From: Gemmatimonadaceae bacterium | Lineage (GTDB): Bacteria; Gemmatimonadota; Gemmatimonadetes; Gemmatimonadales; Gemmatimonadaceae | Direction of reading: 5' to 3' | Assembly (NCBI GenBank): GCA_019637445.1 | Contig: JAHBVS010000001.1 | Span: 1,771,586-1,835,585 of the forward strand | DNA length: 64,000 bases | In this document: positions 45,926 through 64,000 of the stretch, one piece after another | Position numbering within the stretch: position 1 is the first letter of the stretch | How the letters are laid out: each line of letters begins with the position of its first letter | Position numbers and translations under genes: made by a program | The notes under the pieces: model-generated | Told to the model about the DNA's origin: nothing | Databases searched by the model: none | Seen by the model: the letters and a program-made list of their open reading frames with translations, nothing else

Positions 45926-46031
45926 GTCGGGCTCGCAGGTGGTGGGGTACGGCGAACATACGGCACAAGGCCGCACACCACGAGAGCGGCCGACGTCGAA
46001 GGAGGTACCTGTGCGCGCGCTCCGGCCGATC

Positions 46032-46595: not shown

Positions 46596-46779
46596 GGTTC
46601 TTCCTCCCTATGTGTCGTGTGCCGACCTGGTGGCGGCTCGAGAGCACCTACGGCGCAGCTCCGCGCCGGATTCACCCGACGCAGGATGCGCCCTAGAATC
46701 GCGAGTGGGACAGAGCGGGCAGCGGGAGTAACTTGCTACTGGGACAAGAGCATCAACGCCTGTATAGCAGAGGACGGCG

Positions 46780-47052: not shown

Positions 47053-47054
47053 CG

Positions 47055-47393: not shown

Positions 47394-47397
47394 GAAG

Positions 47398-47838: not shown

Positions 47839-47906
47839 GTCAAATCGGATGAAATGAGCTGGTCCCGCCGCTAGATTCCCAAAGCTACCCCCTGACCGGA
47901 GACTCG

Positions 47907-49058: not shown

Positions 49059-49087
49059 GGCGAAACGGCGCCGCAGCGAGCGTGATG

Positions 49088-49113
49088 CCGGCGGAACCGC
49101 GGAATGCCGCCGG
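49088..49113 (+). terminator. Hairpin after the saccharopine dehydrogenase-like gene
   Basis: CCGGCGG (49088-49094) pairs with CCGCCGG (49107-49113), loop 12 bases, 30 bp after the stop, followed by AACAGGTTT. Moderate strength. Confidence 0.45.
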
Positions 49114-49271
49114 AACAGGTTTAACGCGAACGTAATGCCCAAACGTCTCACGAGCGGGAACCATCCCCAGTCGTGACGCGTAGTTGGCTCAACGGGTATC
49201 TCGTCATACGCGGTGGACGATTCCCGTCACGCGCAGTAGGCTTGCGACACCTCAACCGGAAGGAGGGAGCG

Positions 49272-49526
49272 ATGGCTGAAAATGCGTTCGTAGTCCGTAC
49301 CTTCCCGAACAGCGTCGAGGCGGAGTTTGCCCAGGCGGTGCTGGATGCCAATGGCATCGCCTGCATGTTGCTGAAGGACAACGGCGGTGGGATGCTGCCG
49401 TTCCTGGATGTGCTGCACCCGGTGCGCTTGGTCGTGCGGCAGGGCGATGTGGATACGGCGGTGCGGCTGCTCGATGCGACGGCGGCCACGGATCCCAACG
49501 CCAAGGAACCACCGCTGCCGAGCTAG
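49272..49526 (+). CDS. DUF2007-like small protein
   Basis: An 84-residue protein from ATG 49272, chosen because AAGGAGGG lies just upstream; the in-frame extension to 49173 has no such site. AFVVRTFPNSVEAEFAQAVLDANGI with VRLVVRQGDVDTAVRLLD (parts) is the ferredoxin-like beta-alpha-beta pattern of DUF2007, called a putative signal-transducing domain. There are no ligand residues to name. Confidence 0.8.
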   Translation: MAENAFVVRTFPNSVEAEFAQAVLDANGIACMLLKDNGGGMLPFLDVLHPVRLVVRQGDVDTAVRLLDATAATDPNAKEPPLPS

Positions 49527-49560
49527 TAGTAGACTCTGCGCCGCCCGCGCGCTTGTCTCG

Positions 49561-51078
49561 TCAGCGCGCGAAGCCGGCCAGCGTCACGCCCATCGCATCG
49601 ATGGTGGAGCGGGCGCGCCAGAGATCTCGACCGTTGTACAGGAAGGCGAAGGCCAAGAGCTCCCCCGAGCGGGTCGTCACGTACCCGCCGAGGGAGCTCA
49701 CGTCGTTCGTGGTGCCGGTCTTGGCGCGGAGGTTGTTGTCGGCCGGTGTGCGGCGCATGCGGGTGCGCAAGGTCTCGGTGCGGCCCGCGACGGGTAGCGT
49801 GGTCGCGAAGACTTCGCCCCAAGGCGCGGCCTGCGCGTAGCTCAGCAGCTGCACCATCGACTTCGCCGTCACACGGTCGTGCGTGGAGAGGCCACTGCCA
49901 TCCGCGGCGAACACGGCGTTGCGGTCGGCGCCTACGCGAGATTCGAGAAAGGCGCGCAGGGCTTCGTTGGCCGCGGCGGCCGACCCGGCGTCCTGCTCGG
50001 TGCGCGCGGCATTCCGGAACAGCAGTTCGGCGAAGTGGTTGTTGCTCTCGCCGTTCATCGTCATGATCAGCTGCGCCAGCGGCGCCGAACCCCACGCGGT
50101 GAGACGCTCGGCATTCCCGGGCGCGGGATCGGCGCGGACTTCACCGTCGATCACGATGCCGCGTTTCTCAAGCGCGGCGCGGAAGGATGCGGCGGCGAAT
50201 CGCTCCGGTTCCTCGACGACCACGCGGTAGCGCCGCTCCGGGCTTGAGGCGCCTATCCATCCGTGCACGCGGAAGTGGCCGGCCACGGTGTCCTGCCACA
50301 CGCGAATCCAGGCGCCGCGGCTGCCTTCGCGCACGTTCACCGTGGAGTTGATGGGGATACCGTAGAGTTCTTCCTCGAACTGCACGGTGGCCCCGCGCGC
50401 GGTGGAGCGCACGACGATGTTGGCGATGTTCTCGTTGACGCTGAGCGCCGAGACGCGGGCCGCGTAGCCGGCCTGGAGGTAGCGGCGCAGCCAGCCGTCG
50501 GGCACGCGGCTGTCCTGGAACGCCGAGGCGTCGCCGACGATGTCGCCGGTCACGCGACGCACACCGGTCGCGTAGACCTGGTCAGCGATCGCGTCCATCG
50601 GCGAGACGCCATCGTGCCAGTTGCGATAGCGCGGGGAGAGCGAGGGGTCGCCGGCGCCCTTGAGGTAGAGATTGCCGGTGATCGTGCCGTCACTGAGCGC
50701 GCCGTCGCGCAGGATCTCGGTGCGGAACTGATGTGCGGGGCCGAAGCGGTCGAGTGCCATCGCCGACGTGTACAGCTTCATCGTCGACGCCGGCAGCAGC
50801 AGGGCGTCCGGATTGTGCGCGAACAGCGTGTCGCCGCGGGTAAGCGAGACGACCATCACGCCCCAGGCGCCGCGCGTGGTGGAGGCGCGAATCAGGGTTG
50901 CGAGGTCACGCTGCAGTGCAGCGCTGCCGATGGGACTGGTCGCGGCCGGCGTCGGCCGCGGCGCTGGCCGTCGGCCTGCCGGTGCCGTGGGGGGCCGCGG
51001 GGTCTGCGCTGCCGCGTCCACGGTGCCGATCAGGGCACAGCAGGCGAGGAGGGCGACGACGGCGCGGCGATGAGGCAT
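49561..51078 (-). CDS. dacB: D-alanyl-D-alanine carboxypeptidase/endopeptidase (PBP4, DacB type)
   Basis: A 505-residue periplasmic class C penicillin-binding protein. Signal peptide to about residue 25, then a Pro/Ala linker. The three active-site motifs of the fold are present: Ser98-Thr-Met-Lys101 (LPASTMKLY), SVN in ALSVNENIA and KTGT in LRAKTGTTND. The large insertion between the first two motifs identifies the PBP4 subclass. It trims or cleaves peptidoglycan cross-links. It follows ctaG after 30 bp on the same strand. Confidence 0.94.
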   Translation of the reverse strand: MPHRRAVVALLACCALIGTVDAAAQTPRPPTAPAGRRPAPRPTPAATSPIGSAALQRDLATLIRASTTRGAWGVMVVSLTRGDTLFAHNPDALLLPASTMKLYTSAMALDRFGPAHQFRTEILRDGALSDGTITGNLYLKGAGDPSLSPRYRNWHDGVSPMDAIADQVYATGVRRVTGDIVGDASAFQDSRVPDGWLRRYLQAGYAARVSALSVNENIANIVVRSTARGATVQFEEELYGIPINSTVNVREGSRGAWIRVWQDTVAGHFRVHGWIGASSPERRYRVVVEEPERFAAASFRAALEKRGIVIDGEVRADPAPGNAERLTAWGSAPLAQLIMTMNGESNNHFAELLFRNAARTEQDAGSAAAANEALRAFLESRVGADRNAVFAADGSGLSTHDRVTAKSMVQLLSYAQAAPWGEVFATTLPVAGRTETLRTRMRRTPADNNLRAKTGTTNDVSSLGGYVTTRSGELLAFAFLYNGRDLWRARSTIDAMGVTLAGFAR

Positions 51079-51108
51079 CTGTGCAGGTTAACCAGTGAGA
51101 CGAGGGGC

Positions 51109-51930
51109 TCAAGCCCTGACTTGCGCGCCGGCCCTGTCGTCACGCTGGCTGGTGCTCCAGCGGAAGAAGATCACCGAGGTGATCAGGTAGAAGAACAGGC
51201 CGCCGGGGATCCACATGATCAGGCCCCCGAGGCGCTGGTCCTCAAGGGGCGAGAGGCCCCAGAGGCGTGGCGCGCTGGCATAGGCAGGATAGAGCACGTG
51301 GTCTGCATACACGATGAAGATCGAGATGATCGTCATCGGGAGCGTCAGCAGGAAGCTGTAGAGCATCTGCCCCGGATAACTGAGTCTCGGCAGCTCCGGC
51401 AGCGGGCTCAACATGGGCCACCACATGATGACCGAGGCCACGAGGAACATCAGGTGCTGCAGGATGTGGATCTCGTGGTGGAACATCGCGGAGTTGTACA
51501 GCGGGGGGAGGTGCCAGCCGGCCAGGACGACGTTGAAGATCGTGAAGGCGGCGGTGGCTGGCGTGACCTTCTCCGCGAACTTCCTGATGGGCCTGAACTG
51601 CAAGGCGGGGCGGAGCATCCAGCCGGGAGTGCCCATCAGCAGCAGTGGCGGCACGACGATGGTGAGCACGAGGTGCTGCACCATGTGGCCGGTGAACAAG
51701 TAGTAGTCGCTGATGTCGTGGACGGGGCCGTTCAGCGTCAGGAACATCAGCAGCAGGCCAGTGCTGAAGCTGGCGGTCTGGAACAGCGTCGGTTTGTGGC
51801 TGCCGTCTCTTGGGATGCGGGAGAGCCACAACGCCTGGATCGCCAGGATGCCGATGACGGTGGACCAGTGGAGGGTGAAGCCTCCCTGGCTGAGGTCGAC
51901 GTTTGGGTGGGCCCAGATGACAGGCTTCAT
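51109..51930 (-). CDS. ctaG: Cytochrome c oxidase assembly protein CtaG (caa3 type)
   Basis: A 273-residue inner-membrane protein with seven hydrophobic helices. Conserved His and Pro motifs (FTGHMVQHLVLTIVVPPLLLMG, GWHLPPLYN, FHHEIHILQHLMFL and MWWPMLSPLP, in parts) match the caa3_CtaG family that assists assembly of caa3 oxidase. It is last in the oxidase operon, separated from subunit IV by a 195-bp repeat insert whose end abuts this ATG. Confidence 0.92.
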   Translation of the reverse strand: MKPVIWAHPNVDLSQGGFTLHWSTVIGILAIQALWLSRIPRDGSHKPTLFQTASFSTGLLLMFLTLNGPVHDISDYYLFTGHMVQHLVLTIVVPPLLLMGTPGWMLRPALQFRPIRKFAEKVTPATAAFTIFNVVLAGWHLPPLYNSAMFHHEIHILQHLMFLVASVIMWWPMLSPLPELPRLSYPGQMLYSFLLTLPMTIISIFIVYADHVLYPAYASAPRLWGLSPLEDQRLGGLIMWIPGGLFFYLITSVIFFRWSTSQRDDRAGAQVRA

Positions 51931-52127
51931 GCGGGATGCGGGGTGGAACTACGCAGAGGGAAGCGGGAACGGGATGCGGGATGATGCGGGGCGCGGGACT
52001 TGATGCGGGGGAGGATGCGGAGGGAGATGCGGGGGGGGGGGATACGGGATGCGGGGGCGCCCGGAGATTCCGAGCCACCCCCGCATCGCGTTTCAGCCTT
52101 CGTCCTACAACCTTCGTCCTCCGTCCT
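51931..52127. repeat. GATGCGGG repeat element, gene-free copy within the oxidase operon
   Basis: The 86 bases 51935-52020 align without gaps to 60362-60447 with about six differences. The core GCGGGAACGGGATGCGGGAT continues to 51991 (core 51963-51991) and is 28/29 identical, inverted, at 60996-61024. To its right GATGCGGGGG (52048-52057) pairs with CCCCCGCATC (52078-52087) as a hairpin. Then two CCTTCGTCCT units (52097-52106, 52111-52120) run into the subunit IV stop codon. It fills the entire gap between ctaG start and subunit IV stop. Confidence 0.85.
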
Positions 52128-52437
52128 AGAGAACAAACTTCCCAAACAGGAACAACAGTGCCGTGATCGTCGCGCCGGCAATGATGAGCGGGCCGGTGAA
52201 CAGGGCCTTGAACAGCTTGTGGTCGTACTTGAGGTGCATGTAGAACAGCACCACGATGGCGAACTTGGCGGCCGACATGATGATCAGCGCCGGATTGAAC
52301 AGCGGTGAGGCGACCAGGCTTGGGATGTAGTAGGCCCAGACCTCGATGGCCGTGATCAGCGTCAGGATGACGCCGACCTTGATGTACGTGGCGCCGGTCG
52401 GGTGCGCGTGGGCGGCGTCCTTGTGCTCGTGTGCCAT
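52126..52437 (-). CDS. Cytochrome c oxidase subunit IV (prokaryotic)
   Basis: A 103-residue protein from ATG 52437 with three membrane helices (KVGVILTLITAIEVWAYYI, IIMSAAKFAIVVLFYMHLKY and IIAGATITALLFLFGKFVL). The His-rich N-terminus (HEHKDAAHAHPTG) and YMHLKYD are typical of the small CyoD/CtaF subunit. It follows coxC after 16 bp. An in-frame extension to 52563 lies within coxC and is not coding. Confidence 0.88.
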   Translation of the reverse strand: MAHEHKDAAHAHPTGATYIKVGVILTLITAIEVWAYYIPSLVASPLFNPALIIMSAAKFAIVVLFYMHLKYDHKLFKALFTGPLIIAGATITALLFLFGKFVL

Positions 52438-52453
52438 GGGCGTCTCCGTCCGG

Positions 52454-53146
52454 TTACTGGATGAGGTAGATGAGCGTGAAGATCGCGATCCAGACCACGT
52501 CCACGAAGTGCCAGTAGAGCGCGGCGATGTCCACGAGCAGCTCGTCCTTGGGGCCGAGCCCACGCGTCCGGTCCACCCACAGCAGCGACATCAGCCAGAG
52601 CACGCCGACCGTCACGTGCGCACCGTGGAAGCCGGTGAGCGTGAAGAAGGTGGAGCCGAAGAGGTTGGTCTTGATCGTCAGGCCTTCGCGGACGAACGAG
52701 GTGAACTCGTAGGCCTGGAAGCCGAGGAAGGTCGTGCCGAGCAGGGCCGTCATGAACAGCCAGGTCTGGGAGGAGCGCTGGATGCGCGTCCACCAGTTGG
52801 CGCCCTCGGGCAGCGGCGTGTCCTTGAGCTGCACGGCCTGCAGGGCGAGCACCATGGCGAGGGACGACATCAGCAGCACGAAGGTCGAGGCCGACGTGAC
52901 CGGGATGTCGAGGATGGGCTTGAAGACCTGCCCGGCCTCGTTGATGTACTCGGTGTGCGGGAAGGGCCCGACGATGGAGCGGCCCTTGTAGATGAGGTAC
53001 GTGGCGATCAGCGACGCGAAGAGCATGCACTCCGACCCGATGAACGCCCAGATGGCGATCTTCCGGTGGTCGAGGCCCGTCGTCGTGTAGTGATGGTGCG
53101 CGTGCCCTTCGTCGTGGGCGTGCGCGGCGGCGGCGTGTGCGGACAC
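52454..53146 (-). CDS. coxC: Cytochrome c oxidase subunit III
   Basis: A 230-residue membrane subunit with five helices; AHAHDEGHAHHH at the N-terminus, KIAIWAFIGSECMLFASLIA, PLPEGANWWTRIQRSSQTWL and GFHGAHVTVGVLWLMSLL followed by ALYWHFVDVVWIAIFTLIYL (parts) are the conserved COX3 segments. It binds no metal and stabilises subunit I. It lies 14 bp after coxA. Confidence 0.95.
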   Translation of the reverse strand: MSAHAAAAHAHDEGHAHHHYTTTGLDHRKIAIWAFIGSECMLFASLIATYLIYKGRSIVGPFPHTEYINEAGQVFKPILDIPVTSASTFVLLMSSLAMVLALQAVQLKDTPLPEGANWWTRIQRSSQTWLFMTALLGTTFLGFQAYEFTSFVREGLTIKTNLFGSTFFTLTGFHGAHVTVGVLWLMSLLWVDRTRGLGPKDELLVDIAALYWHFVDVVWIAIFTLIYLIQ

Positions 53147-53160
53147 TGTGATGGTCTCCC

Positions 53161-55077
53161 TTACTCGAGCGGGCTGGTGAGCCAGGTATAGAGGCCCGCC
53201 ACCATCGCCAGCGCGCCACCGATCGTGACGGCCATCGAGACGGCGAACATGTCATTGCGGAGGAACAGCAGGCCGCAGAACATCACGACCATCGAGAAGG
53301 CGACCACCAGCGGCTTGGCCGTGGGGAAAGGCATCGGGATGCCGAGTTCCTTGGCCGTGTGGCGCTCCTTCTCCTCATGCATGGGCACCGCGTGGGCGTC
53401 GGTGATGGTCACCGCGTCGGCGTGCGAGTGCTCGATGCCGGCCGTCTTCTCCGGGGACTTCAGGTCCCAGAGCGGATAGCGCGACTCGACCTCGGGGATC
53501 TGCGCGAAGTTGTACTCCGGCGGCGGCGAGGGAATCGACCACTCCAGCGTGGCCGCGCCCCAGGGGTCATTGCCGGCGACGGCGCCGCGGGTGCGGCTGC
53601 GCAGGAAGTTCCAGACGAACACCGACGTCGCGATCACCAGCAGGTAGGTGCCGTAGGTGGCAAGCAGGTTGAACAGGTCAAAGCCCTGGCCGGCGTCGTA
53701 CGTATAGATGCGGCGCGACATGCCGAGCAGGCCGCTGAAGTGCATCGGGAAGAACGTGAGGTTCATGCCGATGAACGTCAGCCAGAAGTGCAGGTTGCCC
53801 AGCCCCTCGCCCATCATGCGTCCGGTCATCTTCGGGTAGTAATGGTAGATGCCGGCGAAGATGCCCATGATGCTTCCACCGAAGAGCACATAGTGGAAGT
53901 GCGCGACGATGAAGTAGGTGTCGGTCTGCTGCAGGTCGGCCGGCGGCGAGGAGTGCATCACGCCCGAGATGCCGCCGATGGTGAACATGCCGATCAGCGC
54001 GATGGCGAACTTCATCGGCACCGTGAAGCGGATCTGGCCGTCCCACATCGTGGCGATCCAGTTGAAGATCTTCACGCCCGTGGGGATGGCGATGAGCATC
54101 GTCATCATCGAGAAGATCGAGTCGGCCACGGGACCCATGCCCACGGCGAACATGTGGTGGGCCCACACGCCGAAGCCGAGGAAGCCGATCATGATGCCCG
54201 AGTAGACCATCACGTTGTAGCCGAACAGCGGCTTCTTCGAGAAGGTCGGCAGCACCTCCGACACGAGGCCGAAGGCGGGCAGGATGAGGATGTACACCTC
54301 GGGGTGGCCGAACACCCAGAACAGATGCTGCCAGAGCAGCGGGTCGGCGCCAGCGGCAATCGCGTAGAACGTCGTGCCGAAGAAACGATCCATCAGCAGG
54401 AAGAACAGCGCGATGGTGATCGGCGGGAACGCGAGGATGACGAGGAACTGCACGACGAACGACATCCACGTGAACATCGGCATGCGCATCAGGCTCATGC
54501 CCGGGGCGCGCATGTTGATGATCGTCGTGATGAAATTGAACGCCGCGGCCAGCGAGCTGATGCCGAGGATCTGCAGGCCGAGCACCCAGAAGTCGATGTT
54601 GGGGCCGGCCGAGAAGCGGCTCGTGCTGAGCGGGGCGTAGCCGAACCAGCCACCGTCGGGCGCGACCTGGAACAGGATGGGCAGCGTGATGAAGATGCCG
54701 CCGAAGAGGTACACCCAGTACGAGAACGCATTGAGCCGCGGGAAGGCGACGTCACGCGCGCCGATCTGCAGCGGAATCAAATAATTGAAGAACGCGGCCG
54801 AGAGCGGCATGATGGCGAGGAACACCATCGTCGTGCCGTGCATCGTGAACAGCTGGTTGTACGTCTCGGCGCTCACGAAGCCCATGTTCGGGCGCATGAG
54901 CTGCGTGCGGATGAGGACGGCCTCGAGGCCGCCGATGATGAAGAAGATGAGCGCGGTCCAGAGATAGAGCGTGCCGATCCGCTTGTGATCGACAGTGGTG
55001 ATCCAGCTCCAGATCCCCGTATTCTCCGCGGTCGCGGCGGAAGCCGTCGCGGTCGTCGGTGCAGCGATGGATGCCAT
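53161..55077 (-). CDS. coxA: Cytochrome c oxidase subunit I
   Basis: A 638-residue heme-copper oxidase catalytic subunit. It holds low-spin heme, high-spin heme and CuB. MHGTTMVFLAIMPLSAAFFN gives one low-spin heme His. WVFGHPEVYILILPAFG carries the CuB His cross-linked to Tyr and marks a type A oxidase. HHMFAVG holds the two further CuB His. YFIVAHFHYVLFGG holds the heme His pair. A C-terminal extension of about 110 residues adds two helices. The second gene of the operon. Confidence 0.97.
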   Translation of the reverse strand: MASIAAPTTATASAATAENTGIWSWITTVDHKRIGTLYLWTALIFFIIGGLEAVLIRTQLMRPNMGFVSAETYNQLFTMHGTTMVFLAIMPLSAAFFNYLIPLQIGARDVAFPRLNAFSYWVYLFGGIFITLPILFQVAPDGGWFGYAPLSTSRFSAGPNIDFWVLGLQILGISSLAAAFNFITTIINMRAPGMSLMRMPMFTWMSFVVQFLVILAFPPITIALFFLLMDRFFGTTFYAIAAGADPLLWQHLFWVFGHPEVYILILPAFGLVSEVLPTFSKKPLFGYNVMVYSGIMIGFLGFGVWAHHMFAVGMGPVADSIFSMMTMLIAIPTGVKIFNWIATMWDGQIRFTVPMKFAIALIGMFTIGGISGVMHSSPPADLQQTDTYFIVAHFHYVLFGGSIMGIFAGIYHYYPKMTGRMMGEGLGNLHFWLTFIGMNLTFFPMHFSGLLGMSRRIYTYDAGQGFDLFNLLATYGTYLLVIATSVFVWNFLRSRTRGAVAGNDPWGAATLEWSIPSPPPEYNFAQIPEVESRYPLWDLKSPEKTAGIEHSHADAVTITDAHAVPMHEEKERHTAKELGIPMPFPTAKPLVVAFSMVVMFCGLLFLRNDMFAVSMAVTIGGALAMVAGLYTWLTSPLE

Positions 55078-55094
55078 TGGTCAGGATCTCCGGA

Positions 55095-56288
55095 TCACTT
55101 GAGCGACCGCAGGTACGCCACGACATCGGCGATCTGCGCATCGGTGAGGCCCGCGGTCACGGGGCCCTTGAGGTCGGGGCTGTACTCGCCCACGCCGACG
55201 ACGAGCATCAGCGCGCCGGGCTTCATCTTCTTGGCGTTCTTCACCCAGCGCGCGACGTTGGCGTCGGTGTTGGGGAAGAGGCCGCCGCCGAAGGTGTGGC
55301 GGGAGGCGAAGTGCGTGAGGTTGGGACCGATCGTGGAGACGGCCATCGGGTTGCCACCGACAGCGTGACAGCCGATGCAGCCACCCATCAGGAAGGCGGT
55401 CTGGCCGCGCGTGGCGTCGCCGTTGGCGAGCAGCGCGTCGTCATACGCGATCGTCGCGTTGACCGGCGTCTTCGGGATCACGTGGTCCGGCAGGTCGGCG
55501 GCCGGGAACGTGTAGCCGTCCGCCGGGCCCGCGTAGGTGGAGTCACGGTGCGGGACGGCCGGTGACGCCTGGTGCGCCACCCAGGAGGCGAACTGCTCGG
55601 GTGACACGGTGAACATCCGGAACTTCATGTTCGCGTGGCTGGTGCCGCAGTACTCGACGCAGAAGCCGTTGTAGGCGTTCGTGCCGAGGTCGGGGTTCGG
55701 CGTGAACCAGAGGTAGTTCGTCCGGTTCGTGATGAGGTCGCGCTTGCCGCCCATCTGGGGGATCCAGAAGGAGTGCAGCACGTCCTTGCTGCGGAGCACG
55801 AAGTTCACCGGGCGGCCGACCGGCAGGTACAGCTCGTTGGCCGTGGTGACGCCGTACTCGGGATACTTGAACTCCCACCACCACTGGTTGCCGGTGACCT
55901 CGACCGTGAGCGCACCCGCCGGGGCCGGCGCCTGCGTCTGGAAGATGGTCTTCACGGTGGGGATGGCGATGAGCACGAGGATGACGGCGGGAATCGCCGT
56001 CCACGTGATCTCCAGCGCCACGTTGCCGTGCGTCTGCGGCGGCTCCGGGGAATCCGGCTTCTTGCGGAAGCGGATGATGGTGTAGAGGAGCGCCAACTCG
56101 ACGACGACGAACACGATCGTGCCCCAGAACAGCAGGCGGCCCCAGAGGCCATCGATCGCGATGTTGAAGTCGGTGGTGTGGTTGAAGGTGGAGTTCGGAT
56201 ACTGCTCCGCTCCACACGCGGTGAGCGTCAGGGTAATCGCTGCCAACAGCAGCGCTGGCGCCGCCTGACGCAGGCGCGACATCGACAT
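55095..56288 (-). CDS. coxB: Cytochrome c oxidase subunit II with fused cytochrome c domain (caa3 type)
   Basis: A 397-residue lipoprotein (TLTAC, Cys25). Two membrane helices (about 51-73 and 97-112) are followed by the cupredoxin CuA domain with ligands His172, Cys210, Glu212, Cys214, His218 and Met221 (CVEYCGTSHANM). A C-terminal class I cytochrome c domain has CIGCH (Cys304, Cys307, His308) and a later Met in AKKMKPG. Electrons enter through the fused cytochrome, so this is a caa3 oxidase. First gene of the operon; TATATGG (minus strand) near 56348 could be its -10. Confidence 0.96.
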   Translation of the reverse strand: MSMSRLRQAAPALLLAAITLTLTACGAEQYPNSTFNHTTDFNIAIDGLWGRLLFWGTIVFVVVELALLYTIIRFRKKPDSPEPPQTHGNVALEITWTAIPAVILVLIAIPTVKTIFQTQAPAPAGALTVEVTGNQWWWEFKYPEYGVTTANELYLPVGRPVNFVLRSKDVLHSFWIPQMGGKRDLITNRTNYLWFTPNPDLGTNAYNGFCVEYCGTSHANMKFRMFTVSPEQFASWVAHQASPAVPHRDSTYAGPADGYTFPAADLPDHVIPKTPVNATIAYDDALLANGDATRGQTAFLMGGCIGCHAVGGNPMAVSTIGPNLTHFASRHTFGGGLFPNTDANVARWVKNAKKMKPGALMLVVGVGEYSPDLKGPVTAGLTDAQIADVVAYLRSLK

Positions 56289-56507
56289 CGTGACTCGGGC
56301 TGGGGGGAGTGCCGCCGGTCCGGAAACGGACGGAAGCCGCCATATATGGGACTCGGAATAACCTACCCCGCCCCTAGGGGTCTCACAAGCGGCGGAACCC
56401 CCACCTAAGTCCTTGTGCCGGTCAAGGTTCGGACCCCTTGGCCGATACTGCGCCGCGGGGTCGCAGCCGCAGGAACGCCCGGGGGCGACGCGGCGCGGGC
56501 TGCGGTG

Positions 56508-56882
56508 CTAGTCCGGCGCGATCTCGATGGGCACCGCGTGCTGCTCCTTCACCTTGGCCTGCATGATCTCCAAGGCGGTGCGGATCTGGCCCACGTACTC
56601 ACGAAGGGCCCGCACCTTGGTTTGCTCGCCACCGCCCCGGCCGGACGCGAGGATCATCGCGCTCACCTGGTCGGCGATGAGGCCGAACTGGCCCTTGAGC
56701 TGCCCCTGCAGCGGGGTGGCAATCCGCTTGATCTGTCCCGGGATGATGCCGACGCCCCGCTGGTTCTTGACGTCGATGGCCATCCGCTCCACGTGGCCGT
56801 GGATGGTCTGGATGGTGGCCAGGGCCTCCTCGATGGTCTTCATCTTCTGGGCGCCTGCGCCGTCGAGCTTGACTCCGGCCAT
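56508..56882 (-). CDS. Conserved helical protein of unknown function
   Basis: A 124-residue soluble, mainly alpha-helical protein (TIEEALATIQTIHGHVERMA, GQIKRIATPLQGQLKGQFG, TKVRALREYVGQIRTALEI, in parts) with heptad-like spacing that suggests a coiled coil. No catalytic residues. It lies alone between the oxidase operon and the aspartase gene; GGATGAAGGGTGAAGG starts four bases before its ATG. Confidence 0.6.
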   Translation of the reverse strand: MAGVKLDGAGAQKMKTIEEALATIQTIHGHVERMAIDVKNQRGVGIIPGQIKRIATPLQGQLKGQFGLIADQVSAMILASGRGGGEQTKVRALREYVGQIRTALEIMQAKVKEQHAVPIEIAPD

Positions 56883-56885
56883 GTT

Positions 56886-56925
56886 TAGGATGAAGGGTGA
56901 AGGTGGGAGGTTGAAGGCATCTGGA
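56886..56925. repeat. Degenerate heptamer repeat next to a start codon
   Basis: From the fourth base upstream of the 56508-56882 gene: AGGATGAAGGGTGAAGGTGG, then GAGGTTGAAGGCATCTGGAT. It recalls the GGATGRA heptamers at 670-697 and GGATGCG of the 52- and 60-kb elements. The rest of the 153-bp gap, to 57034, holds only a weak GAGGCG/CGCCTC hairpin. Confidence 0.5.
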
Positions 56926-57034
56926 TGCGAGGTGCAAGGCTCCGTACACCGGACGAGGCGCCTTTCCCGCCTCTTGCCAACCTAAGGGCTTTTGCCGCGA
57001 GCCGCAGCGACGGGTAGCGGTCTGGGCGCGCCCG

Positions 57035-58894
57035 CTACCTGCCGGTCATGGCGCTGGGGTCCAGCACCGCATCCAGCTGCTTTCGCGTCATCAGCTTCTT
57101 CTCCAGCGCCAGCTCGGCCACGCCGCGGCCAGTTTCCAGGGCCTCCTTGGCCAACGCCGTGCACTTCTCATAGCCAAGCGTTGGCAGCAGCGCCGTGACA
57201 AGCCCGATGGAGCGCTCCACGAAGTCGCGCATCACCTGCGGGTTGGCCTCGATGCCGTCCACGCACTTCTCGCGCAGCACGCGGCAGGCGTTGGTCATCG
57301 CCGAGATGTTGCGCAGGAGCCGGAATGCGATGATCGGCTCGAAGACGTTGAGCTGCAGCTGCCCCGCCTCGGCGGCCAGCGTCACGGTGACGTCGCCGCC
57401 GATGACGTCGAAGCAGACCTGGTTCACCGCCTCGGGGATCACCGGGTTCACCTTGCCGGGCATGATGCTCGAGCCCGGCTGCATCGCTGGGAGGCGGATC
57501 TCTGCGAGGCCGGCGCGCGGGCCGCTGGAGAGCAGGCGCAGGTCGTTGCAGACCTTGCTAAGCTTGACGGCGCAGCGCTTGAGCACGCCGCTGAGCTGGA
57601 CGAAGGCGCCGGTGTCGCTGGTGGCCTCAACCAGATCCGGTGCCGTGACCAGTTGGAGCCCCGTCACCTGTGAGAGGTGCGCACGCACCTTCTCGGCGTA
57701 ACCCTCGGGCGCAGTGATGCGCGTGCCGATGGCGGTGGCGCCCATGTTGATTTCACGAATCAGCGCCTTGGCTTCCTCGAGCCGGTCCACGTCCTCCGCG
57801 ATGGTATTCGCAAAGGCGGTGAACTCCTGGCCGAGGGTCATTGGCACGGCGTCCTGCAACTGCGTGCGGCCCATCTTGATGTGCGGGGCGAACTCCTGGC
57901 CCTTGGCGCGGAAGGCGGCGACCAGCGCGCGCATCGCGCCCTGCAGATCGCCGATGGCGTAATGCAGCGCCAGACGCACCGCCGTCGGATACACGTCGTT
58001 GGTGCTCTGTGCCAGGTTCACGTGCTCGTTGGGATGCACGCGCGCGTAGTTGCCGCGCGGCTCGCCGAGCAGCTCGAGCGCGCGGTTCGCGATGACCTCG
58101 TTGGCGTTCATGTTGGTCGAGGTCCCCGCGCCGCCCTGGATCATGTCGACGCGGAAGTGCTCGTGGTGCGCGCCGGCCTCGATCTCATTGCAGGCGCGCA
58201 CGATCGCATCACCCACCTCGGCATCGAGCGTGCCGAGGTCGACATTGGCGCGCGCGGCGGCCTCCTTCACCTGGGCGATGGCGATGATCAGCTCGGGGAA
58301 GAAGCGCAGCGTGACGCCGGTGATCGGGAAGTTCTCGATGGCGCGCAATGTCTGCACGCCGTAGAGCGCGCCCTCGGGCACCTCGCGCTCGCCGAGCAGG
58401 TCCTTTTCCTTGCGGGTGTGCGAGCTGGCGTCGATGACGCGGTCGCGGCCGGAGAGCGAGAGGTCGGCCTGCTTGAGCCGCGCGGCGATGACGCGGGCCG
58501 CGCGCGAGACCAGGGCGGCATAGAGGCGCGGCTGGTCCTTGAGCATCGGGCCCAGCACGTCCTTGGAGAATCGCAGGGCCTTCAGCGTGTGGATGACACG
58601 GCCCTCGGTGTGGTGCACATCCTCCTGCAGCAGCAGACTCTCGCCGACGATGTCGCCGTGGCTCAGGGTGGCGAATCGCGTGGGCACGGCCCCGAAAGGC
58701 GCCTCGATCGCGAGTTGCCCGTCGAGGATGACCCAGATGGCCTGACGCTCCTCGCCGGCACGGAAGAGCCGGTCCTCCGGCTGGTACTCCACCTCCTCGG
58801 CGGCGCGGCCAAGGTGCCAGAGAAGTTGGTCAGGGAGGTCCGCGAAGAACGGGATCTCGGCGAGGACGTTGTTGCTGCTCGAATTGAAGGGCAT
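57035..58894 (-). CDS. aspA: Cyclic-nucleotide-binding-domain / aspartate ammonia-lyase fusion
   Basis: A 619-residue protein. Residues 1-150 are a CRP-like cyclic-nucleotide-binding domain: AEIPFFADLPDQLLWHLGRA, RAGEERQAIWVILDGQLAIE and HGDIVGESLLLQEDVHHTEG (parts). No DNA-binding domain follows. From about 165 comes aspartase: KEKDLLGEREVPEGALYGVQT, then GAGTSTNMNANEVIANRA, the THSE-region PNEHVNLAQSTND and the fumarase/aspartase signature GSSIMPGKVNP (near 467). It deaminates L-aspartate to fumarate. Nucleotide control by the added domain is an inference. The phosphate-binding cassette EGESLL-R is replaced by GDIVGESLLLQED. Confidence 0.9.
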   Translation of the reverse strand: MPFNSSSNNVLAEIPFFADLPDQLLWHLGRAAEEVEYQPEDRLFRAGEERQAIWVILDGQLAIEAPFGAVPTRFATLSHGDIVGESLLLQEDVHHTEGRVIHTLKALRFSKDVLGPMLKDQPRLYAALVSRAARVIAARLKQADLSLSGRDRVIDASSHTRKEKDLLGEREVPEGALYGVQTLRAIENFPITGVTLRFFPELIIAIAQVKEAAARANVDLGTLDAEVGDAIVRACNEIEAGAHHEHFRVDMIQGGAGTSTNMNANEVIANRALELLGEPRGNYARVHPNEHVNLAQSTNDVYPTAVRLALHYAIGDLQGAMRALVAAFRAKGQEFAPHIKMGRTQLQDAVPMTLGQEFTAFANTIAEDVDRLEEAKALIREINMGATAIGTRITAPEGYAEKVRAHLSQVTGLQLVTAPDLVEATSDTGAFVQLSGVLKRCAVKLSKVCNDLRLLSSGPRAGLAEIRLPAMQPGSSIMPGKVNPVIPEAVNQVCFDVIGGDVTVTLAAEAGQLQLNVFEPIIAFRLLRNISAMTNACRVLREKCVDGIEANPQVMRDFVERSIGLVTALLPTLGYEKCTALAKEALETGRGVAELALEKKLMTRKQLDAVLDPSAMTGR

Positions 58895-58911
58895 GATCTG
58901 CGGAAGTTAGC

Positions 58912-60306
58912 TCAGGCTCCCGGCGCGGCCGTGAGGCGCCGCACGAGGCGATACATGAACTCGAGGCCCTGGTAGAACGATTCCGTCTCGATCTTCTCGT
59001 TCATGCCGTGGGCGTTGGGATTGGAATAGAAGAGGCCGGAGATGCCGTACACGGGAATGCCGGCGCTGCGGAAGTACATCCCGTCGGTGGCGCCGGTGCT
59101 CATCGTGGGCACGACCGGGATGCCCGGGAAGATCTCCTGCGTGGTGGCTTCGAAGGCGCGCAGCAGGTCCGGCGAGAGCGGCGACGAGGGCGAATCGCGG
59201 TCGGCGCGGTTGGTGGTGATGTGGACGCTGGTGTCATTGACGGCGGCGACGAGCCGGGCACGCACGTCCTCGACCTTCTCGTCCGGCAGGATGCGGCAGT
59301 TCACGTTCGCCGTGGCGCGCTGCGGGAGTGCGTTCGAGGCGTGGCCGCCCTCGAGCAACGTGGCCACGCAGGTGGTACGCATGCGCGAGTTGTTGGAGAA
59401 GTCGCGGGCGATGATGGCGGCGGCCGCGGCATCGGCGTTGTTGGCGACGATGCGCCGCATGGCGGCGCCGGTCTCGCCGCCGAGGATGTCGGCCTGGCGC
59501 GAGAAGTACATCCGCGTGGTCTCGTTGAGCTTCACGGGCTGCTGCAGCTGGCCGATCTTGGTCAGCGCGGCGGAGAGCGCATAGATGGCGTTGTCGGGCC
59601 GCGGCACGGAGCTGTGGCCGCCCGGGTTGGTGGCCTCGACCTTGAAGTTCGCCACGTACTTCTCGGCGGACTGGACGTCATTGGAGACGCGCTTGTCGTC
59701 GACCATGCGTCCGCCGCCGCCCTCGTTGAGGACGTATGCGGCATCCACGAGCTCACGATGGTTCTGCAGCAGCCAGCGTACACCGTTCTCCGGCCCGCCC
59801 TCCTCGTCCGCCGTCAGCGCGACGATGATGTCGCGGTCGGGGACGAAGCCCTCGGCCTTCATCCGCAGAAGGATGGTGAGGTGGATGGCGCCCTCGTCCT
59901 TGTCGTCGGCGACGCCGCGGCCGTAGAAGTTGCCGTCGCGTTCGATGAACTCGAAGGGCGGGAGGGTCCAGTCCTCGGGGTTGGCCTCGACGACGTCGAT
60001 GTGGCTGAGGAGCAGGATGGGACGCTGCGCACGATTCCGGCCCCTGTAGCGGACGACGAGGTTGCCTTTGCGGGGGGCGTTCTCGAGGACGTGGATGTCG
60101 GATGCGGGGAAGCCGGCGGCTCGCATGTGCTTCGCCATGGCTTCGGCGGCTTCCACGGTGTTGCCGTTCGAATGCGTGGTGTTGATCTCGATCAGTTCCT
60201 TCAGCAATGACCGCGCTTGTTCCTCCCATCGCGTCAGCTGGCGTTGGGCGATGAGGGATGCGGGGAACAGTGCTAGGGCGGATGCGAGGGCGAGGATGCG
60301 GAGCAT
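58912..60306 (-). CDS. Exported M20-family metallopeptidase
   Basis: A 464-residue secreted dizinc peptidase from ATG 60306 (signal ILALASALALFPASLIAQ). The metal and catalytic motifs of the M20 clan are visible: ILLLSHIDVVEAN (zinc His, catalytic Asp), GRGVADDKDEGA (bridging Asp), ALTADEEGGPENG (catalytic Glu and zinc Glu) and a late His in NPNAHGMNEKIE. NPGGHSSVPRPDNAIYAL is the dimerisation-domain segment. It removes amino acids from peptides or N-acyl groups; substrate unclear. It reads away from the repeat-flanked S23 gene. Confidence 0.9.
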   Translation of the reverse strand: MLRILALASALALFPASLIAQRQLTRWEEQARSLLKELIEINTTHSNGNTVEAAEAMAKHMRAAGFPASDIHVLENAPRKGNLVVRYRGRNRAQRPILLLSHIDVVEANPEDWTLPPFEFIERDGNFYGRGVADDKDEGAIHLTILLRMKAEGFVPDRDIIVALTADEEGGPENGVRWLLQNHRELVDAAYVLNEGGGGRMVDDKRVSNDVQSAEKYVANFKVEATNPGGHSSVPRPDNAIYALSAALTKIGQLQQPVKLNETTRMYFSRQADILGGETGAAMRRIVANNADAAAAAIIARDFSNNSRMRTTCVATLLEGGHASNALPQRATANVNCRILPDEKVEDVRARLVAAVNDTSVHITTNRADRDSPSSPLSPDLLRAFEATTQEIFPGIPVVPTMSTGATDGMYFRSAGIPVYGISGLFYSNPNAHGMNEKIETESFYQGLEFMYRLVRRLTAAPGA

Positions 60307-60334
60307 TGTCTCGGTTTGGTTTGGGTCTCGATGA

Positions 60335-60500
60335 AGATGCGGGAGGCGGGATGCGAACGGCAATGCGGGGTCGAACTACGCAGAGGGCAGCGGGAACGGG
60401 ATGCGGGATGATGCGGGGCTCGGGACCTGATGCGGGGGAGGATTCGGGGGTGGATGCGGGGTGGGGATGCTGGGTGGATGCGGGAATCGGGATACGGTGT
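60335..60500. repeat. Left copy of GATGCGGG element beside S23/IVP gene
   Basis: Direct orientation. 60362-60447 matches 51935-52020. The core is 60390-60418 (GCGGGAACGGGATGCGGGAT...). Further GGATGCGGG-type units continue to 60500, just before the ATG of the S23 gene. With the inverted right copy (60921-61070) it encloses that gene. Confidence 0.88.
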
Positions 60501-60504
60501 GGGC

Positions 60505-60918
60505 ATGGATACTCGGTTTCCGGTGCCTGCCCTCAGTGGCGATGGGATGGATCCAGTCGAACGACTCTCTGCCTACCGGCTTGCCTTGGAGGCGATGCGG
60601 AAGGGGCGGGAGGATGTCGCTCGGATGCGGGGGGATCCGGCGTTGGCCGAGGTTGCGGGGCAGTTGCTGCGGGCGACCGCTTCCGTTGCGGCCAACATTG
60701 CCGAGGGGTATTCGCGCGGGTCGCCGAGTGATCGGCGGAAGTTCCTCGAGTACGCTCTGGGCTCCACGCGCGAGTCAATCGTGTGGTACGAGGCCTCCGA
60801 ACTCGCGGAGAAGCCCGAACGCCTCGATCGGCTGGTCTCAATCCGCAGGCTGTTGCTGACAATGATCCGCAGCGCCCGAACAGACAGTGCGCGCGACCGA
60901 CAGAAGTGGAGGCGATAG
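60505..60918 (+). CDS. S23/IVP-type four-helix-bundle protein
   Basis: A 137-residue helical protein of the family known from 23S rRNA intervening sequences and, more distantly, the Avd proteins of diversity-generating retroelements. The hallmark is RATASVAANIAEGYSRGSPSDRRKFLEYALGSTRES (residues 56-91, in part), with IAEG and the acidic/basic face of helices 2 and 3. ATG 60505 or 60547 could be the start; the frame opens further into the repeat at 60430. Members form pentamers with a basic groove that may bind nucleic acid. Here it is not inside an rRNA gene, and no reverse transcriptase gene is within 50 kb. Repeats flank it on both sides. Role unknown. Confidence 0.85.
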   Translation: MDTRFPVPALSGDGMDPVERLSAYRLALEAMRKGREDVARMRGDPALAEVAGQLLRATASVAANIAEGYSRGSPSDRRKFLEYALGSTRESIVWYEASELAEKPERLDRLVSIRRLLLTMIRSARTDSARDRQKWRR

Positions 60919-60920
60919 CC

Positions 60921-61070
60921 CCGCATCCCGCATTCGAGACCGAAGCGACGCATGGATCCGGAAACGGATGCGGAGCTCCCGCATCAAGCCCCTCACCCCG
61001 CATCATCCCGCATTCCGTTCCCGCTTCCCTTTGCGCACTTGGCCCGCATCGTAGTTCGCATTCCGCATCT
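60921..61070. repeat. Right, inverted copy of GATGCGGG element beside S23/IVP gene
   Basis: Starts three bases after the S23 stop codon. Core 60996-61024 is the reverse complement of 60390-60418 with one mismatch in 29. Around it the similarity continues over 60977-61060 with insertions. It ends about 40 bp before the asparaginase gene start. Confidence 0.85.
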
Positions 61071-61112
61071 CCACGGATTGGGGTACCATTGCAGCACCCC
61101 ATCCCCAAGCAA

Positions 61113-62141
61113 GTGACCACCAGACGCGACTTCCTAGCCTCGACGACGGCTGCCCTCGCAGCCTCCGCGATTCCCGCCTCCGAGGCCGCCGCATCCCAAG
61201 CTTCCGCATCCGCAGTCCGCGCGAGGCCGACGATTATCGCGAGCGCGAACGGCATCCGCGGCGTCCGCGTGGCCTATGACAAGATCGTCGCGGGTGAAGA
61301 CACCCTGGACGCCATCATCGCCGGCGTGAACATCCAAGAGTTGGACCCCCACGATCAGTCAGTCGGCCTCGGCGGCTTCCCGAATCGCGACGGCGTAGTG
61401 CAACTCGATGCCAGCTGCATGCACGGCCCCACCAAGCGCGCAGGTGCCGTCGGCTGCCTGGAGGACATCGCCACTCCGAGCCTGGTCGCGAAGGCGATCA
61501 TGGACTACACCGACCACATCATGCTGGTTGGTGACGATGCCAAGAAGTTTGCGCTGGAGCTTGGGTTCAAGCCGCAGAACCTGCTGACGGAGCAGACTCG
61601 GCAGGACTGGCTGCGCTGGCGCGCACAGTTGAATCCGAACGACGCCCATCTGGACTACGAAGGCAACGTCGCCATCAAGTTCTCGACCGGCACGATCAAC
61701 ATGAATGCCGTGAACGCGAGCGGTGACATTTCCTCGGTGACCACCACCAGCGGGATGGCCTGGAAGGTGCCGGGCCGTGTGGGCGACTCGCCGATCATTG
61801 GTGCGGGCCAGTACTGCGACAACACCGTCGGCGCCGCGGGCTCGACCGGACGCGGTGAGGCGAACATCAAGGTCTGTGGCGGCTTCCTCACCGTCGAGTT
61901 CATGCGGCAGGGGCTGTCGCCGCAGGCGGCCTGCCTCAAGACGCTGGAGCGGATCGTTGCGATGACCGAGCGCCGGCTCCTCGATGAACGCGGGCGGCCG
62001 ACCTTCGATATCCAGTTCTACGCCATCAGCAAGGACGGCCGTTACGGTTCGGCGACGATGTACGAAGGCGCCGAGTTTGCGGTGGCGGACTCGAATGGGG
62101 CGCGCGTGGAGAAGTGCGCGTTCCTCTACCGGCGCGGCTAG
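61113..62141 (+). CDS. Tat-exported Ntn-hydrolase, N4-(beta-N-acetylglucosaminyl)-L-asparaginase type
   Basis: A 342-residue protein from GTG 61113, which places a twin-arginine signal at the N-terminus (TTRRDFLAST, then alanine-rich to about residue 35). The body is the aspartylglucosaminidase-like Ntn fold. FSTGTINMNAVN holds the presumed autocleavage threonine (GTI, compare HDTI), followed by SVTTTSGMAWKVPGRVGDSP, IIGAGQYCDNTVGAAGSTG and GRGEANIKVCGG. The active enzyme would be two chains made by self-cleavage before Thr. It hydrolyses GlcNAc-asparagine or isoaspartyl bonds. The long ORF upstream passes through the repeat and is not coding. Confidence 0.88.
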   Translation: MTTRRDFLASTTAALAASAIPASEAAASQASASAVRARPTIIASANGIRGVRVAYDKIVAGEDTLDAIIAGVNIQELDPHDQSVGLGGFPNRDGVVQLDASCMHGPTKRAGAVGCLEDIATPSLVAKAIMDYTDHIMLVGDDAKKFALELGFKPQNLLTEQTRQDWLRWRAQLNPNDAHLDYEGNVAIKFSTGTINMNAVNASGDISSVTTTSGMAWKVPGRVGDSPIIGAGQYCDNTVGAAGSTGRGEANIKVCGGFLTVEFMRQGLSPQAACLKTLERIVAMTERRLLDERGRPTFDIQFYAISKDGRYGSATMYEGAEFAVADSNGARVEKCAFLYRRG

Positions 62142-62227
62142 CGGCGACGGGCGTCGCGATCGGCAGCGCGGCGCGTTCTAGGCCGCTGCGGCGTCCTCGG
62201 CGGCCTTGCGTCTCTCCCCAACCGCGG

Positions 62228-63598
62228 TCAACGTGCGCCGTCCGCGCGGCGAGTGCTCGTCCTGAAGCCCGCCGCCGCGCCGCCGACCTTCTCCGCCGAC
62301 TGCAGTAGCGAGCTCGCCGCGGCCGCAATCTCTTCGGTGCTGGCGCTCTGCTCCTCGCTAGCTGCCGCCACATCCTGCATCGAGTCGGCGAACGAGCGCG
62401 TGCCGCGCGACAGCGACTCCAGCTTCTCGGTGATCTCGCGCGCCAGCTGCTGACCGGAGCTCGCGGTGGCCGACATCGACGAGATCCAACCGTCCCCGGC
62501 GGCGACGGCGAGCTCCACGGAGCTGAAGGCCTCGCGGCCGCGCGATGTCGTGGCGCGTACCGTCTCCACCGTTGCGCGTGAGCGCACCGCCGAGGCGTGG
62601 GCGGCCTCGACCTGCGCAATCAAGTCCTTCATCAGGACGTCCGTCTTTGACGCCGCCTCCTGCGTGGCCTGCGCGAGACGTCGCACCTCGTTGGCCACCA
62701 CGGTGAATCCCTCGCCGTGCTCGCCGGCGCGCGAGGCCTCCATCGACGCGTTCATCGCCAGCAGCTTGGACTGCTTGGCGATGCGCTGCACCAGCGCGAC
62801 GAAGGCGAGGATCTCCTCCGATGCGCCTGCCAATGCCTCGGTAGCGGCCGCGCCGGCGCGCACATCGCTGGCGAGTTCGTCCAGGCGGCGCGCACCTTCG
62901 TCGAGATGCCCTGCGTTCCCGGCCGCCAGCTCGGAGAGTTCGCGGTTGCGGCGCAGGCCGTCGTTGGCGCCATCGCTGACGCCGGCGGCCAGCTGCGCGA
63001 GGCGGGTCGCATCGCCACTCAGGCCGCGGATGGTCTCGGCCATCGTCGCGGACTCGAGGCTGAGCGCGCTCGCCGTCTCGGCCACTCCCGACGCCGCTTG
63101 CGCCAGGTGCTCCGTGCTCGCGGTGATCTCCGAGGCCCGCTGCTGCGTGGCGCCGGCATTCTCGCGGATCAGCGAGGCGAGGCGCCGCAGCGTGCTCGTC
63201 ATCTCGACCATCGCACGGCCCAGGCGGCCGAGTTGACCGCCCTCGTCGGCGGCGTCGGGGCGCTGGGTGAGGTCGCCGCCGGCGATGGATTCCGCGACGT
63301 CCGCGAGCCCGCGGATCTGCTCGCCCACGGCGGGGGAGATGAGGAAGCGGAAGATGACCGCCGCCGCGGTGAGCGAGAAGGCCAGCACCAGCCCGACGAG
63401 CCAGGGGAGCCGTCCCTCGGCGGCCAGCTCGGTGATGATGGGCGCCCCGACCAGCATGGCGATGGCCACGCCCACCGCCCCCACGATGGCCGACCAGTCG
63501 GCGGCCTGGTCGATGATGTGGCGGCGGACGCGCCCGCGGGGGGCGTCAGGTTTGGTCGGAGCTTCCACGGCGGCTAAATTTCCCAGATTCCCTTCCAT
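62228..63598 (-). CDS. Methyl-accepting chemotaxis-like protein without large sensor domain
   Basis: A 456-residue protein from ATG 63598. Two membrane helices (SAIVGAVGVAIAMLVGAPII and LVGLVLAFSLTAAAVIFRFL) are only a few residues apart, so almost no periplasmic sensor remains. A HAMP-like helix (DVAESIAGGDLTQRPD) is followed by a long coiled coil with the receptor hairpin tip RIAKQSKLLAMNASMEASRAGEHGEGFTVVANEVRRLA (in part) that contacts CheA and CheW. It may sense membrane or cytoplasmic state. Its first 20 codons overlap the leuS promoter on the other strand, so a start further in is possible. Confidence 0.85.
   Translation of the reverse strand: MEGNLGNLAAVEAPTKPDAPRGRVRRHIIDQAADWSAIVGAVGVAIAMLVGAPIITELAAEGRLPWLVGLVLAFSLTAAAVIFRFLISPAVGEQIRGLADVAESIAGGDLTQRPDAADEGGQLGRLGRAMVEMTSTLRRLASLIRENAGATQQRASEITASTEHLAQAASGVAETASALSLESATMAETIRGLSGDATRLAQLAAGVSDGANDGLRRNRELSELAAGNAGHLDEGARRLDELASDVRAGAAATEALAGASEEILAFVALVQRIAKQSKLLAMNASMEASRAGEHGEGFTVVANEVRRLAQATQEAASKTDVLMKDLIAQVEAAHASAVRSRATVETVRATTSRGREAFSSVELAVAAGDGWISSMSATASSGQQLAREITEKLESLSRGTRSFADSMQDVAAASEEQSASTEEIAAAASSLLQSAEKVGGAAAGFRTSTRRADGAR
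63552..63582 (+). promoter_or_regulatory. leuS promoter of TTG-N20-TAAATTTC type
   Basis: TTG (63552-63554), 20-base spacer and TAAATTTC (63575-63582), the same as the gyrA promoter. It lies 21 bp before the leuS ATG and inside the 5' end of the chemotaxis-like gene. Confidence 0.6.
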
Positions 63599-63603
63599 AG
63601 ACG

Positions 63604-64000
63604 ATGACAGCACCCGCACCAGAGCCAATCGGCTACGACCCCACGGCGATCGAGGCGCGATGGCGGCAGCAGTGGGCCGATCGCGGCACGCATCGCAGCG
63701 ACATCGCGAACGGCGAACGTCCGTTCTACGCGTTGATGATGTTTCCCTACCCGTCGGCCGAAGGCCTGCACGTGGGGAATCTGTTCGCGTTCACCGGTTG
63801 TGATATCTATGCGCGCTTCCAGCGCCTGCAAGGTCACACGGTGTTCGAGCCGCTGGGCTACGACGCGTTCGGCATCCACTCGGAGAACTTCGCCCTGAAG
63901 GTCGGCGTGCATCCGATGGAGTTGATCCCGCGGAACATCGCGAACTTCCGTCGGCAGTTGGACCGCGCGGGCCTGATGGTGGACTGGTCGCGCTCGGTGG
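63604..64000 (+). CDS. leuS: Leucyl-tRNA synthetase (5' part; gene continues beyond the window)
   Basis: The first 132 codons of a class I aminoacyl-tRNA synthetase; the reading frame stays open to the end. The HIGH-type ATP motif is HVGN (His56-Asn59) in FPYPSAEGLHVGNL. FEPLGYDAFGIHSENFALKVGVHPMELI and NFRRQLDRAGLMVDWSRS (parts) match leucyl enzymes. It charges tRNA-Leu with leucine. ATG 63604 follows a strong promoter; only five bases separate it from the divergent chemotaxis-like start codon. Confidence 0.95.
   Translation, partial: MTAPAPEPIGYDPTAIEARWRQQWADRGTHRSDIANGERPFYALMMFPYPSAEGLHVGNLFAFTGCDIYARFQRLQGHTVFEPLGYDAFGIHSENFALKVGVHPMELIPRNIANFRRQLDRAGLMVDWSRSV

Follow-up and report, generated by a model that had tools for sequence, protein, structure and literature searches.

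S23/IVP genes between inverted copies of their own dispersed repeats: a possible REPtron-like gene-repeat system in Gemmatimonadaceae and other bacteria

Introduction

Reports of heptameric intergenic repeats in Calothrix, Nostoc, Xanthomonas and Beggiatoa go back decades, and we know of neither an origin nor a partner protein for them. S23 proteins are in a similar position, as structures have been solved and, to our knowledge, no function is known.

Among the described gene-repeat systems, REPtrons unite REP sequences or REPINs with a RAYT transposase (PMC3116915, PMC3733652). The heptameric repeats of Xanthomonas have the unit GGGAATC, occur mostly as four units and form 70 convergent pairs in Xanthomonas campestris (Xcc), while the heptamer of Nostoc reads GGGGAYT (PMC4692102). 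In Beggiatoaceae the unit is TAACTGA, and the author of that study sought an unknown repeat-binding protein (PMC4679880). Neither S23 nor a partner protein is mentioned in the texts of PMC4692102 and PMC4679880. The S23 protein Xcc0516 from Xcc forms a pentameric ring of four-helix bundles (PMC4990558). In the open-access literature we found no earlier report that links S23 to dispersed repeats.

Results

The S23 gene of the window and its repeat

The window analyzed here is a stretch of 64,000 nucleotides from the 3.35-Mb genome of a Gemmatimonadaceae bacterium (G000). Its gene at 60505-60918 (plus strand) encodes a protein of 137 amino acids, the assignment of which to the S23/IVP family proved sound. 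The protein scores above the curated cut-offs of PF05635 (47.8 bits, cut-off 33.8) and TIGR02436 (57 bits, cut-off 24) in profile searches, and its AlphaFold2 model (pLDDT 85) predicts four long helices arranged as a four-helix bundle. The solved structures closest to this model are the S23-family entries 2rld and 2gsc (E 2e-3 to 4e-3), the latter of which is also matched at the sequence level. The start codon is uncertain, with an in-frame ATG at 60430 lying within the left repeat. Judged by dN/dS values of 0.07-0.18, S23 is under purifying selection. Identity as a defence system was discarded, as PADLOC gave no match, and so was a phage origin, as one query of a phage collection did not find S23.

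As originally predicted, the gene is enclosed by a direct and an inverted copy of one dispersed repeat. The left arm (60343-60436, plus strand), with a head of about 85 nt that includes the repeat core, aligns locally over about 94 bp with the right arm (60978-61069, minus strand), which was also recognized by its core match. The interval that separates the left arm from the S23 start is occupied by GATGCGGG-type units (60437-60500, plus strand), and GGATGCGGG is found at 60452 and 60476. The arm-versus-arm alignment scores 48, compared with about 10-16 for controls of the same geometry. A 39-nt core is present at 60380-60418 (plus strand), at 60996-61034 (minus strand, three mismatches) and at 51953-51991 (plus strand, one mismatch), the number expected by chance being 0.00. 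With this expectation and with the far lower flank controls, a chance origin of the repeat pair was rejected. The third site belongs to a solo copy of the same repeat (51931-52127, plus strand), which, as had been claimed, lacks S23; it carries GATGCGGG units and fills the intergenic gap between ctaG and a COX4-like gene. A search of the whole genome with a 27-nt core returned further copies, nine in all (reversed-pattern control, zero). All nine bear GATGCGGG units, and the only close inverted pair among them is the one around S23. With GATGCGGG spaced at 12-13 bp and a head of 85 nt, this repeat is not a heptameric tandem array.

Several of the solo repeats in this genome (L001, L008, L127, L129) lie next to or around strong hairpins of the GGCC type that resemble intrinsic terminators.

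The genes around S23 are ordinary. An M20 peptidase (58912-60363, minus strand; Pfam) is its left neighbour and an asparaginase (61110-62141, plus strand; Pfam and orthologues), used below for the comparison of filled and empty sites, its right neighbour; an aspartase-like lyase (57035-58894, minus strand), an MCP and a cytochrome oxidase operon are also present. These neighbours are protein-coding and there is no Rfam match in 45000-64000, in accordance with the original placement of the gene outside rRNA; it does not lie within 23S rRNA. The statement that neither a transposase nor a reverse transcriptase is encoded nearby can be widened. No transposase is among the Pfam-typed genes of the locus, searches for Y1 transposases (PF01797) in this genome and in the sample of its genus were negative, and reverse transcriptases (PF00078) were found neither in this genome nor in the S23-rich genomes G020, G021, G022, G025, G033 and G040. 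These searches bear on the idea that a known transposase or reverse transcriptase owns the arrays and acts on them in trans, be it of the RAYT or IS200/IS605 type or a DGR-like reverse transcriptase with S23 as its Avd. The architecture does mimic that of REPtrons and MITEs (PMC3116915, PMC3733652), but within this genus such an origin is already largely refuted and we consider it highly improbable.

Inverted flanks around S23 genes

Two S23 genes were found in the window's genome by a PF05635 profile search. The second (G000:C2:529983-530294), located between genes named from sequence as ychF-like and pyrophosphatase-like, also resides between inverted repeats. These are of a different type and consist of tandem GTGAGTN heptamers. 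This heptamer is dispersed at about 35 places in the genome, many of which are hairpin elements built from an array, a loop and the inverted array; the inspected ones have ends like AACTGCAGT...ACTGCAGTT, common to the second S23 locus. The S23 gene beside ychF is syntenic in 14 genomes, with differing arrays. Given the inverted arrays at this second locus, inverted arrays around S23 genes in general were put to the test.

In the window's genome and in relatives from the same genus, family and order, 90 of 101 S23 genes proved to have inverted flanks with a score of at least 17. By the same measure, such flanks were recorded for 10 of 1241 other ORFs of similar geometry, which were mechanical ORFs and not curated genes, and for 13 of 1500 cross-locus pairs. 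The threshold of 17 was picked after the distributions had been seen, and the contrast persists at 15, 20 and 25. Flanks in direct orientation reached this score in only 7 of the 101 genes (the direct scores of six loci cut by contig ends were left out in the first flank pass), and 11 of the 101 loci are without detectable arms. When 400 kb of G022 with only four S23 matches were scanned without bias, three of six inverted pairs with a spacing of 300-800 bp enclosed S23.

A scan of named genomes yielded S23 loci from more than ten phyla. Outside Gemmatimonadota, inverted flanks were present at 55 of 71 S23 loci, mostly from draft or metagenome assemblies, compared with 5 of 559 random places. 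Because the scan was made with a tight profile, the sample leans towards one S23 subfamily. Since draft and metagenome assemblies prevailed, finished plasmids from Nostoc, Calothrix, Anabaena, Geminocystis, Leptolyngbya, Pseudanabaena, Gemmatirosa and Azospirillum were examined. Here, inverted flanks accompany 11 of 16 S23 loci, inverted arrays next to S23 on Nostoc and Calothrix plasmids included, and in some cases the arrays touch the ORF. An artefact of draft assembly was ruled out because the finished plasmids have the same arrangement. S23 genes are associated with inverted repeat flanks. The original prediction could have failed on S23 genes of related genomes that never lie beside such repeats; in related and unrelated genomes they mostly do, and the flank counts strongly support a gene-repeat system built on S23 without transposase or reverse transcriptase. 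What has to be given up is the picture of a single, one-off element, as each S23 has its own, mostly 7-bp, repeat.

On three plasmids, from Anabaena sp. 90, Picosynechococcus sp. PCC 7003 and Pseudanabaena galeata (L343, L352 and L353), S23 is situated within CRISPR operons, flanked by cas6 and cas4 or by cas10 and a Cmr3-family gene, and is co-directional with the operon.

Anatomy of the arms

Outside the window, most flanks are tandem repeats of a 7-bp unit, with four to five copies in each arm. Self-identity in the arms from other phyla amounts to 0.73 at lag 7 and to about 0.2-0.3 at lags not divisible by 7, and the best period was 7 in 46 of these 55 arms. Most other S23 loci, the second locus of the window's genome included, have repeats that are heptameric, tandem, intergenic and dispersed, and the window repeat is an atypical, non-heptameric member. 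The number of tandem units differs between arrays. Its median of 4.3-4.7, a figure influenced by the detection threshold, is only suggestive with regard to five units per pentamer, and this stoichiometry was not adopted. G outnumbers C in the 5' arm at 54 of 55 loci from other phyla and at 83 of 90 from the relatives, so that the polarity of the arms relative to the gene is fixed. A heptamer consensus common to all S23 arms was rejected, since its information of 3.84 exceeds the shuffled maximum of 3.78 only marginally; we claim G-richness only.

At seven loci of G020 (L026, L052, L054, L057, L062, L074, L110) the arms are mostly long inverted sequences and not heptamers, and 58 kb of flanks in this genome contain no period-7 arrays. 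This is possibly a second architectural type.

When the arms are read as sense RNA, their mismatches comprise 191 G-U and 183 A-C pairs (p=0.72), i.e., there is no excess of G-U. Selection for a stem in the transcript would be expected to enrich G-U, and as this is not seen, the complementarity looks like a property of the DNA. The mismatches therefore lend no support to the proposal that the repeat is an RNA partner of the protein. They also bear on an explanation at the RNA level, according to which the arms form a transcript stem around the S23 ORF that is cut by RNase III, with S23 as passenger or stem binder. Such a case is known from the intervening sequence of 23S rRNA, the terminal inverted repeats of which make a 28-bp stem with S23 inside (PMC4990558). 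However, a preference for wobble pairs is missing, no Rfam match is found near the window gene, and a stem does not require a 7-bp tandem structure; we judge this explanation improbable.

Pairing of S23 genes with dispersed repeats

Units were taken from the S23 arms and then counted across whole genomes. AGATGGG occurs 95 times in G010 and 111 times in G016, the two genomes whose ychF-linked S23 bears this unit, compared with 23 times in G021, 18 times in G007 and at most seven times in the remaining genomes. GTGAGTN was counted 54 times in G000, 19 times in G016 and at most six times in other genomes. GCTGAAG was present in G013 and G015 as predicted and in G009, G001 and G004 as well; G001 contains GCTGAAG arrays, yet its ychF-linked S23 does not have this unit. 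Among 43 genomes from several phyla, AGGATTC was found in 10 of 11 expected genomes and in 1 of 32 others (p=6e-8), the expected set having been written down from the arms of other phyla and tabulated after the count.

S23 genes residing in one genome mostly differ in their unit, as exemplified by AGAGTTG, TGCAGAG, CGAGGTC and ATCGTGA in G021. Heptamers alike in at least six of seven positions make up 3% at an S23 identity of 40-50% and 73% above 70% identity. Unit similarity also tracks S23 identity across phyla (p=0.004, with heptamers permuted only within a phylum). At the level of sequence, each S23 is paired with its own dispersed repeat, and protein and repeat covary. Two period-7 arrays were detected in 715 kb from genomes without S23 (G011, G031, G019, G014, G026) and 51 in 1.2 Mb from four genomes with S23, all of these genomes being related, so that the comparison is not phylogenetically independent. 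Three genomes bear arrays and have no detected S23 (G007, G009, G004), and all three are incomplete assemblies.

Could S23 be a passenger? Heptamer arrays might arise and expand by slippage in the host, and S23 genes might merely settle or survive between them. This would be in line with the tandem nature and variable unit number of the arrays and with solo arrays that flank other genes, too, such as an infA-like frame in G022. On the other hand, specificity for S23 exceeds 80%, compared with about 1% for other ORFs, the units differ among S23 genes of one genome, and almost no arrays are present in S23-less genomes. We thus give this explanation little credence.

In a tRNA cluster of G022 (G022:C5:257560-258520 and 264687-265119), the GTGACTA and TTGGCTA/G families are interleaved, and a short infA-like gene lies between inverted GTGACTA arrays. 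A separate family of seven copies, in which inverted ends of about 50 bp enclose a constant 932-941 bp, was noted in 400 kb of G012:C1 (1059231-1060286, 1126228-1127273, 1130985-1132034, 1140253-1141425, 1196387-1197437, 1299601-1300658, 1344755-1345799) and resembles an insertion sequence.

Evolution of the window's locus

S23 orthologues with 60-64% identity reside between the aspartase-like gene, here their left neighbour, and the asparaginase gene in G008, G016 and G006. In G006 (L267), S23 at this site has the opposite orientation with respect to 60343-61069 of the window, as recombination between inverted arms would produce. G003 contains a remnant that resembles the N-terminal part of S23 together with remnants of GATGCGGG, and the same site is without S23 in G005, G012, G002, G007, G010 and G011. 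The comparison of orthologous sites, from which the original prediction expected filled and empty states, revealed filled, flipped, relic and empty ones in sister species; as far as can be read from these alignments, the direction of gain or loss is given only by the relic, and empty and filled sites are too diverged to delimit ends or target-site duplications. The orthologues themselves are syntenic across species.

The arms in G008 belong to the repeat family of the window. At least six fixed base changes separate the nine copies in G000 from the five in G008, and they are common to S23 arms and solo copies. It follows that the repeat family turns over in concert within a species, while the gene stays in place. 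Recent self-copying of the whole 740-bp unit, as initially envisaged, was not seen: orthologues stay at one site and solo copies are devoid of the gene.

The M20 peptidase gene (58912-60363), located between the aspartase-like gene and S23 in the window, is absent from this position in G008, G016 and G006 and adjoins the asparaginase gene in G005, G012 and G002, which indicates a rearrangement beside the S23 unit.

Discussion

We put the chances at about even that the locus exemplifies a widespread gene-repeat system similar to REPtrons, with S23 binding the array cognate to it and the array spreading at the DNA level. This reading is based on the inverted flanks, the period of 7 and the polarity of the arms, the arrays predicted from units and the covariation of heptamer and S23, and furthermore on solo hairpins that share their ends with S23 loci, concerted turnover, the different site states, the low dN/dS of S23 and the missing signature of an RNA stem. 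Binding by S23, the stoichiometry of ring and array, and the step of mobility or copying are inferred. S23, if a ring of five four-helix bundles as in its solved relative, would recognize its cognate repeat as DNA, in typical arrays perhaps at a ratio of one subunit to one 7-bp unit. The inverted pair would then mark off a selfish element similar to REPtrons, from which the solo inverted arrays would descend as gene-less, non-autonomous offspring. As the system encodes no nuclease, transposase or reverse transcriptase, arrays may be copied or converted by enzymes of the host, to which S23 would lend specificity.

Several findings speak against the REPtron-like reading. No DNA-moving enzyme is encoded, and two S23 loci are syntenic over a genus or family, unlike an active transposon. 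In addition, there are loci without arms, arrays without detected S23 and the non-heptameric repeat of the window. The main rival is a regulatory ring protein. By analogy with TRAP, which acts on triplet repeats, S23 could be a domesticated nucleic-acid-binding ring that binds arrays near genes, either in transcripts or in DNA; the arrays around its own gene would serve autoregulation, the dispersed arrays would constitute a regulon, and mobility would be reduced to slow birth and death of repeats. The strong purifying selection that acts on S23, the preserved gene order at the ychF locus and the fixed polarity of the arms all suit such a role, and translational regulation has been proposed for TAACTGA repeats (PMC4679880). 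However, regulation requires neither an inverted pair around the protein's own gene nor concerted amplification of solo copies, and among sister species the window site can be empty or decayed. Nor do the arms have the excess of G-U that a stem serving as RNA target should display, an argument that covers stems and not single-strand recognition. Overall, we regard a regulatory ring as rather unlikely, though clearly less so than the other alternatives.

In a broader sense, S23/IVP proteins might be the dedicated partners of bacterial heptameric repeats and define a new class of minimal gene-repeat elements that spread arrays through genomes and phyla without transposase, reverse transcriptase or nuclease. 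Each ring would read the 7-bp array belonging to it. The intervening sequences of 23S rRNA and Avd would then be further uses of this protein, either derived or parallel. To this generalization we assign slightly less than an even chance. The link between S23 and heptamers provides long-unexplained 7-bp repeats with a candidate partner protein and S23 with a testable role. If S23 spreads arrays without any known DNA-processing enzyme, repeats would be propagated in a new way.

Of the known systems, diversity-generating retroelements contain with Avd a related four-helix bundle, and one S23 relative matches NF033474 below the cut-off; they differ in that the window's genome has no reverse transcriptase and no features of such retroelements were seen. 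The 23S rRNA intervening sequence of Coxiella (PMC4990558) resembles the present unit in its similar size and in having S23 within terminal inverted repeats. In contrast, the window S23 is not in rRNA, its arms are dispersed repeats with solo copies, and S23 arms lack the wobble signature of an RNA stem. With REPtrons, the window shares a single-copy gene between inverted copies of a dispersed repeat that also has solo copies; further similarities are solo inverted doublets forming hairpins, multiple distinct gene-repeat pairs per genome and signs of coevolution. The differences concern protein and repeat: S23 is a four-helix bundle and not an HUH/tyrosine transposase, Y1 transposases were not found here, and short palindromic REPs with a tetranucleotide tag are replaced by arms of about 94 bp in the window and mostly by 7-bp tandem arrays elsewhere. 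The heptameric repeats (PMC4692102, PMC4679880), compared by their published description, likewise consist of tandem 7-bp units; those of Xanthomonas and Nostoc are G-rich, most often have four units and frequently occur as convergent pairs, and both of these hosts, X. campestris and Nostoc, also have S23.
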